The position numbers and the translations under genes were made by a program. Source: a candidate division FCPU426 bacterium (lineage in GTDB: Bacteria; Oederibacteriota; JAAXVQ01; JAUVAV01). Taken from it: 64,000 nt of DNA. The stretch spans positions 23,198-87,197 of the forward strand of contig JAUVAV010000007.1 of assembly GCA_030591525.1 (NCBI GenBank). The letters are read 5' to 3'. Shown here piece by piece: positions 51,161 to 55,895 of this stretch (the first letter of the stretch is position 1; the number at the start of each line of letters is the position of its first letter). The notes under the pieces were generated by a model. That model saw only the letters and a list, made by a program, of their open reading frames with translations, was not told the DNA's origin and did not search any database.

Positions 51161-51184
51161 TTCACCTCCTGATTTTATTTAAAA

Positions 51185-51215
51185 AAAAAGCGGATGATAA
51201 TATCATCCGCTTTTT
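51185..51215 (-). terminator. Intrinsic terminator / attenuator in the infC leader
   Basis: AAAAAGCGGATGATA / TATCATCCGCTTTTT are perfect inverted arms; on the minus strand GCGGATGAT-x-ATCATCCGC is followed by nine U. It lies in the sense direction only 15 bases before the infC Shine-Dalgarno, so it must be bypassed for expression. CATCCGCTT upstream in the same RNA (from plus 51282-51290) is identical to the 3' arm and can pair with the 5' arm, making an antiterminator. Confidence 0.8.
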
Positions 51216-51338
51216 CAGACCTTAATCTCCAGGAAATTTATCCCCAGCCCGGACTGGCTGCCTAAGGCGCCGCCGGGCGAGAAGCGGATGCTTCTGCTTT
51301 ATATATCCCTATTTTTAGGATATTTTCACTTTTGCTTA

Positions 51339-51428: not shown

Positions 51429-51839
51429 CTACGCCTCCGGCGGCCGTATTTTCAGCTTATCCAGAATTCCGTTGATAAACCCCCCCGAATCCTCAGTACT
51501 GTATTTTTTTGCCATTTCAATCGCCTCATTCATAATCACGTTACCGGGCACTTCCGGGCAATGTTGCAACTCGTAAACCGCCATACGTAGAATATTACGG
51601 TCCACGCCGGCAATCCGGTTAAATTCCCAGTTATGCGTCTGTTTCGTGATCAAGCGGTCGATTTGGTCCAAGTCGCTTATAACACCGCGGGTTAAGGTTT
51701 CAGCATATTCCAGAACTTCAGGCGAAGCCTTCTGTCCGGAAGTAAAATAAGAAACAACCTCATTAACCTTTAATTGTCCCATATCAACCTGAAAAAGCAT
51801 TTTAAAAGCCATTTCCCGTGATTGACGCCTGCGTCCCAT
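51429..51839 (-). CDS. nusB: Transcription antitermination factor NusB
   Basis: From ATG at 51839 (MGRRRQSREMAFKMLFQVD) the protein has 136 residues, normal for NusB; the ORF track runs 38 codons upstream into a MITE. Conserved blocks: RESAMKMLFQ-like start, NRIAGVDRNILRMAVYEL near 80 and VIMNEAIEMAKKYSTEDSGGFINGILDK at the end. It binds boxA RNA with NusE in rRNA antitermination. The RBS AAAGG, 9 bases upstream, belongs to the inserted element at 51845-52001. It follows ribH, a common order. Confidence 0.95.
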   Translation of the reverse strand: MGRRRQSREMAFKMLFQVDMGQLKVNEVVSYFTSGQKASPEVLEYAETLTRGVISDLDQIDRLITKQTHNWEFNRIAGVDRNILRMAVYELQHCPEVPGNVIMNEAIEMAKKYSTEDSGGFINGILDKLKIRPPEA

Positions 51840-51844
51840 AGTCT

Positions 51845-52001
51845 GTAACCTTTCAGTTATGGTACTAAAATCGCATTGTGATAAAGTAAGCGTTGAGAAT
51901 AGAAAATCTAAAATTGACCGCATTTGAATATTATTATCATCTTTAAGGTTCAAATGCTTCGTAACTTATCAGTCATGTTAGTACCATGACTGATAAGTTA
52001 C
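51845..52001. mobile_element. MITE-like insertion at the nusB start, with 8-bp target duplication
   Basis: 157 bases bounded by 24-bp imperfect inverted repeats, GTAACCTTTCAGTTATGGTA (left) and the same sequence with three changes read inward from the right, 21 of 24 matching. It is flanked by the 8-base direct repeat CATAGTCT (51837-51844 and 52002-52009). The right end also forms a 17-bp hairpin with its own mirror copy at 51961-51977. No ORF of its own. Removal of one duplicate and the element would place nusB 19 bases after ribH behind AGAGG. Confidence 0.88.
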
Positions 52002-52016
52002 CATAGTCTGCCTCTT

Positions 52017-52481
52017 TTACTTTATTTCTCCATATAAATTCACCATTTCAATCGCAGCCAGACCGGCCGCAAAACCCTTATTTCCCGCTTTAGTACCCGC
52101 TCTTTCAATAGCCTGTTCCAGGGTATCCGTAGTAATAATTCCGTAAATAATGGGAACTCCGGTTTCCAATGCGGCCTGGGCCACTCCTTTGGCCGCTTCC
52201 GAAGCCACAAAATTAAAATGGGGAGTGCTTCCCCGAATAATCGCTCCCAGGCAGATTACAGCATCAAACCTTCCGGAGGCGGCGGCTTTTTTTGCTATGT
52301 AGGGAATTTCAAACGCTCCCGGAACCCATGCCATTTCCAGGTGCTCATCTTGGGCCCCATGCCGCAGCAGCGCATCCTTGGCGCCTTCCAGTAATTTAGT
52401 GGAAATAAATTCATTAAATCGGCTGACTACCAGGAAATATTTCTTTCCCTCGGAAATTAATTTACCCTCATAAATTTTCAT
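52017..52481 (-). CDS. ribH: 6,7-dimethyl-8-ribityllumazine synthase
   Basis: The likely start is the second of two adjacent ATGs (52481), 7 bases after AGGAGG; product 154 residues. Lumazine synthase landmarks: [16 protein letters not shown] near 20, [15 protein letters not shown] near 55, [16 protein letters not shown] near 80 with the catalytic His, and the C-terminal [17 protein letters not shown]. It condenses the ribityl pyrimidine with dihydroxybutanone phosphate. Last rib gene of the FMN-riboswitch operon, followed by nusB. Confidence 0.96.
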
Positions 52482-52500
52482 CATCTGACCTCCTTGATTT

Positions 52501-55746: not shown

Positions 55747-55759
55747 ATTAATTAAAAAC

Positions 55760-55887
55760 GCCTTCTCCCTTCCCGACTTTAACGGTCGGCCCCGGAATTA
55801 CACCGGATCAATTCCCGATTAATATAACAGCCGGGAACTCGCGGGCTTTCACCGCCGGTGGGGACTCTCACCCCGCCCCGAAGACTT
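55760..55887 (-). promoter_or_regulatory. FMN riboswitch (RFN element) aptamer
   Basis: Read on the minus strand the region contains the strongly conserved RFN segments: CTTCGGGGCGGGGTGA, TCCCCACCGGCGGTGA, AAGCCCGCGAG, CCGGTGTAATTCCGGGGCCGAC and the closing GGGAGAAGG. It senses FMN and controls the riboflavin genes downstream (ribD-ribE-ribBA-ribH). A 9-base segment of its 5' strand can pair with the terminator 5' arm, providing the antiterminator for the FMN-free state. Confidence 0.95.
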
Positions 55888-55895
55888 AAATGATT

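Follow-up and report, generated by a model that had tools for sequence, protein, structure and literature searches.

The junction of ribH and nusB raises the question of which signal starts translation of a gene whose start codon has been struck by a mobile element. The window analysed here, the whole stretch of 64,000 nucleotides, carries a rib operon on its minus strand. The last two genes of the operon are ribH, coding for lumazine synthase (52017-52484, minus strand; TIGR00114, 3.4e-51, NCBIfam), and then nusB (51429-51839, minus strand; TIGR01951, 1.1e-43, NCBIfam), which is intact and gives the sole NusB match in the genome. An FMN riboswitch (Rfam match, minus strand, 55756-55889) lies upstream of the operon, and a ribosomal protein L20 leader was matched by Rfam at 51176-51305, also on the minus strand. 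Our main reading, to which we give a probability of about 70%, is that a MITE with IS66/ISBst12-like ends inserted at the nusB start, that nusB would now be translated from a GAAAGG in its terminal inverted repeat (TIR), and that hits of this kind are tolerated.

The element occupies 51845-52001 (157 bp; plus orientation is defined by the palindrome at the right end). Its 24-bp ends, the left one at 51845-51868 (plus) and the right one at 51978-52001 (minus), match at 21 of 24 positions (GTAACCTTTCAGTTATGGTACTAA vs. GTAACTTATCAGTCATGGTACTAA). This agrees with the earlier note, which had described 157 bases with such ends and an 8-base duplication. Both 8-bp target-site duplications, CATAGTCT, are perfect and each includes the ATG of nusB, as had also been proposed: in the nusB-proximal copy (51837-51844), CAT at 51837-51839 is the present start codon on the minus strand, and in the ribH-proximal copy (52002-52009), CAT at 52002-52004 is a second ATG, placed beside the original Shine-Dalgarno (SD) sequence and cut off from nusB. 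The element is non-coding and has no ORF of its own; an Rfam search gave no match inside it, and neither a promoter nor an intrinsic terminator was found there. The 17-bp hairpin noticed earlier between the two genes does exist, but is really a 41-nt palindrome (51961-52001) composed of the right end and a third terminal-repeat copy on its inner side, with arms that co-vary between copies; no T run follows it on the nusB strand. An internal hairpin, GCATTTGAATATTA / TAAGGTTCAAATGC (51920-51957), is part of the middle of the element, which resembles a repeat module present elsewhere in the phylum.

An empty site, which the earlier note had proposed to seek in close relatives, was found in G001, a relative of the same genus whose NusB is 82% identical at the amino acid level. 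Its ribH-nusB junction, CCCATATTTGACCTCTTTTAC, has exactly the length of that in the window minus the element and one duplicate. In all six relatives compared (G001-G006) ribH and nusB overlap or lie at most ~40 nt apart, without this insert. As the G001 site is empty and none of the six carries the insert, the insertion is placed after the split from G001. Excision in silico restores the ribH-nusB junction, as claimed before, with a spacer between AGAGG and ATG of 6 nt rather than 7. We thus have a short, non-coding element with inverted ends, target duplications, an empty site and dispersed copies, all features of a MITE. A non-autonomous MITE would have entered the nusB translation start, at the end of the rib operon, after the two species had separated. 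With the 8-bp duplication came a second start codon, so that nusB stayed intact while its own SD was moved 165 nt upstream; the ribH-nusB gap grew from 17 nt at the reconstructed empty site to 182 nt.

The sequence upstream of nusB now reads CTGAAAGGTTAC-AGACT-ATG. The TIR-borne SD, GAAAGG (51849-51854, minus strand), stands 9 nt before the ATG, at the long edge of the usual SD spacing. The 16S rRNA tail was taken from a genome of the same family, the gene being absent from the draft itself; it reads CACCTCCTTTCT, and CCUUUC within it can pair with GAAAGG. Computed duplex energies with this tail were -7.4 kcal/mol for nusB as it is now, -5.9 for the empty site and -7.1 for the native site of G001. 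The medians were -7.6 for 40 genes of the window and -2.9 for random 20-mers, 4.5% of which pair as strongly as nusB, so that its pairing energy is not exceptional. By this computation, the new SD pairs no less strongly than the native site. Its predicted accessibility (0.58) is close to that at the reconstructed empty site (0.53). TIR:TIR pairing was predicted to sequester the new SD solely when the inner palindrome arm was removed, in which case accessibility fell from 0.58 to 0.22; as an idea, the palindrome may thus shield the SD. In another relative, G004, GGGAAAGG natively precedes the nusB ATG. Taken together with the NicO case described below, pairing energy and predicted accessibility support, at a 9-nt spacing, the earlier suggestion that AAAGG of the terminal repeat has taken over the SD role. 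Translation of nusB would then begin at this GAAAGG through pairing with CCUUUC at the 16S rRNA end.

A feature overlooked by the earlier note bears on this reading. The native AGAGG-CAGACT-ATG is intact beside ribH (52002-52015; SD at 52011-52015, minus strand, 6 nt before the original ATG), because the duplication carries the ATG. The two ATGs share a frame at a distance of 165 nt (55 codons), and this frame is open from 51953 into nusB. Hence the TIR-borne SD could be incidental, with nusB translation due mainly to ribosomes starting at the native SD and ATG, stopping after 8 sense codons and re-initiating at nusB, or taking an in-frame ATG within the element as their start. By direct reading, the native ATG now opens ATG GTA ACT TAT CAG TCA TGG TAC TAA, a 9-codon frame (MVTYQSWY-stop; 51978-52004, minus strand) whose TAA lies in the palindrome loop. 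However, 138 nt separate this stop from the nusB ATG, which is far for re-initiation. An internal start at 51921-51923 (minus strand) would add a 28-residue N-terminal extension to NusB, but no SD-like sequence precedes that ATG (GATGATAATAATATTCAA), and NusB proteins in G001-G005 begin with MGRRRQ at the position matching the present start. We consider an incidental role of the TIR-borne SD unlikely.

Use of the terminal repeat as an SD is further suggested by a second insertion. A 288-bp relative of the MITE lies between a DUF1007 gene (PF06226) and a NicO gene (PF03824), both assigned by Pfam, in the window's own genome (G000:C81:32968-33255). Its duplication, now with one or two mismatches, includes the NicO ATG. 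Before the insertion, stop and start codons appear to have overlapped here as ATGA, with scarcely any SD. The element end now gives GAAAGG-CTGCC-ATG, with a 5-nt spacer, and a duplex energy of -7.2; the empty site, as inferred, gives -1.7. This insertion also occurs in G001, reduced to ~57 bp but with GAAAGGCTGCC-ATG unchanged; the remnant keeps GGGAAAGGCTGCC-ATG, with a duplex energy of -8.0. At the DUF1007-NicO pair (L125/L126, near 1200-1500), extra internal repeats are seen in the element of G000, and most of the element has been lost in G001. The NicO insertion is older than that at nusB and has the same arrangement, kept in the sister species. Its retained end in G001 is the best evidence for use of such an end, although conservation of GAAAGGCTGCCATG there could be due to chance, given one locus and ~87% identity in the gene. 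Only these two start-codon cases, nusB and NicO, are known. The second, older insertion with the same TIR-derived SD is new here, and the outcome at NicO would be the same as at nusB.

The geometry of the element bears on both cases. With AAAGG placed 4 nt in from the element end and a duplication of 8 bp, any captured ATG falls 4-9 nt downstream of the SD. A broader reading, which we put forward tentatively and rate somewhat below even odds, is that the terminal repeat carries a portable ribosome-binding site, phased by the 8-bp duplication for any captured start codon, and that such insertions uncouple the genes of an operon and are open to domestication. The element would then decay with its SD-bearing end retained, as at NicO in G000 and G001. 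The left-end allele CCTTTC alone gives GAAAGG; the consensus CCTATC yields GATAGG, with a duplex energy of -4.1. The GAAAGG allele is common to the nusB copy and sister copies L002-L004, and hence came with the element rather than being selected at nusB.

The own genome, a draft of 91 contigs and 2.7 Mb, contains ~21 long copies at 87-100% identity, most with recognisable 8-bp duplications; other copies with the same ends, which the earlier note had suggested looking for, are thus present, and with the empty site in G001 neither of the two refuting conditions set in that note applies. Fewer copies were found in G001, G003 and G005. Two sisters of the nusB copy at 98.7% indicate that movement was recent. 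Named records matching the ends bear the label candidate division FCPU426, Candidatus Firestonebacteria or simply 'bacterium'. Quite different repeats stand between the same ends in G005, in elements of ~150-300 bp. Five such loci (L090 820-1052, L091 928-1225, L095 1516-1711, L097 868-1015 and L098 2172-2363) share the terminal repeats around unrelated interiors of the CCCCCTTTT... and GTCATTCCCG... types, as though intergenic repeats of other kinds were being mobilised by these ends. Between the two arms of the palindrome, each copy shows 0-2 differences over 17 positions; between the left and right ends there are 2 or more, and at six pair positions changes have occurred on both sides. These paired changes would reflect either selection for the hairpin or template-switch correction, and the data are compatible with both. 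Even in old copies the right-end palindrome stays self-complementary by paired changes as the left end decays, and solitary palindromes occur at L022 and at G005:C197:4088-4128.

We also compared insertion sites with positions drawn at random from those permitted in the same loci, with genes called by a simple hexamer model. At distances chosen after the fact, 11 of 21 copies lay within 15 nt of a stop codon vs. 4.2 expected (P ~0.0002), and for gene boundaries the count within 15 nt was 14 of 21 vs. 7.4 expected. With the same post hoc reading of distances, start codons were not enriched (2 of 21 copies within 10 nt vs. 3.0 expected). Targeting of gene-junction or translation-initiation sequences by the transposase, with the start-codon insertions reflecting target choice rather than survival, is in our view quite improbable; the clustering at boundaries and stop codons would fit such targeting, but start codons alone show no excess and no clear motif is common to the duplications. 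The lack of start-codon enrichment suggests that the end geometry probably lets insertions at start codons survive. On the survival reading, such insertions would not be targeted and are probably tolerated when the GAAAGG allele of the TIR faces the gene. In two copies, at G000:C17 (L003 near 1501) and G000:C41 (L011 near 1646), the terminal GTAA seems to give the adjoining gene its TAA stop. That the junction is an assembly artefact is highly improbable: chimeric joins may arise at repeats in a 91-contig metagenome-assembled draft, but the element is short, its duplication is perfect, and the sequences on either side are syntenic with G001 and meet again at the exact empty-site length.

The parentage of the family was sought through its transposase. 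No IS66 transposase (PF03050, PF13007) was found in the own genome, and none linked to such ends in relatives and the family; G005 has one degraded IS66 transposase remnant, not linked to the ends. The TIR pattern, searched in the own, family and 45 phylum genomes, returned MITE-sized elements only. A full-length transposase with the same ends, which the earlier note had also proposed to seek, did not turn up between matching ends in any of the genomes searched, though draft assemblies may miss one. Stretches beside single TIRs in G005 and G001 (L089, L094, L096, L099, L100), considered as transposase loci, contained ordinary genes instead. The element has ends beginning with GTAA and makes an 8-bp duplication, as in the IS66/ISBst12 group, but no IS66 transposase linked to such ends was found; we regard this parentage as a lead, not as membership.

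If the main reading is true, a transposon can strike the start codon of an operon gene, even that of the transcription factor NusB, without loss of the gene. The support would be two independent insertions, one conserved between species, of an SD-replacing terminal repeat. The nusB locus would then offer, in an uncultivated phylum, a case, open to direct testing, in which closely spaced and probably coupled translation has given way to independent initiation.

Bacterial MITEs bring promoters, hairpins or stop codons to the genes beside them. We found no clear precedent in the open-access literature for a MITE end supplying an SD, which is weak evidence of absence. Like REP/BIME sequences, the element brings a stable palindrome into transcribed DNA, frequently close to stop codons; REPs lack long inverted ends and 8-bp duplications, whereas both are present here, which sets the element apart from that class. 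The TIR contains a single TAACTGA and no tandem heptamers, and we judged the resemblance to the TAACTGA repeats of Beggiatoaceae (PMC4679880) to be a coincidence. ISDge4, of the ISBst12 group of the IS66 family, has the ends GTAACTGCTCAGCA / GTGACTACTCAGCA and an 8-bp direct repeat (PMC12898284). The MITE ends similarly begin with GTAAC-NNN-TCAG and are flanked by an 8-bp duplication, but end positions agree at only 9 of 14 and the MITE has no transposase inside it or elsewhere in the genome. In Streptococcus pneumoniae, 36 genes take their stop codon from a BOX element, and no good SD sequences were reported for BOX-encoded start-side frames in that study (PMC3049150). The present family resembles BOX, RUP and SPRITE as small repeats at gene ends, with a stop codon apparently provided by the GTAA end in some copies; BOX differs in being modular. 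For MITEAba12, outward promoters and possible fusions were discussed (PMC6382973), and it shares with our element a short, gene-free body, inverted ends, target duplications, many copies and the ability to alter neighbouring genes. The difference is that a Shine-Dalgarno sequence seems to come from the end of our element, and that one end is a palindrome with a third copy of the repeat.
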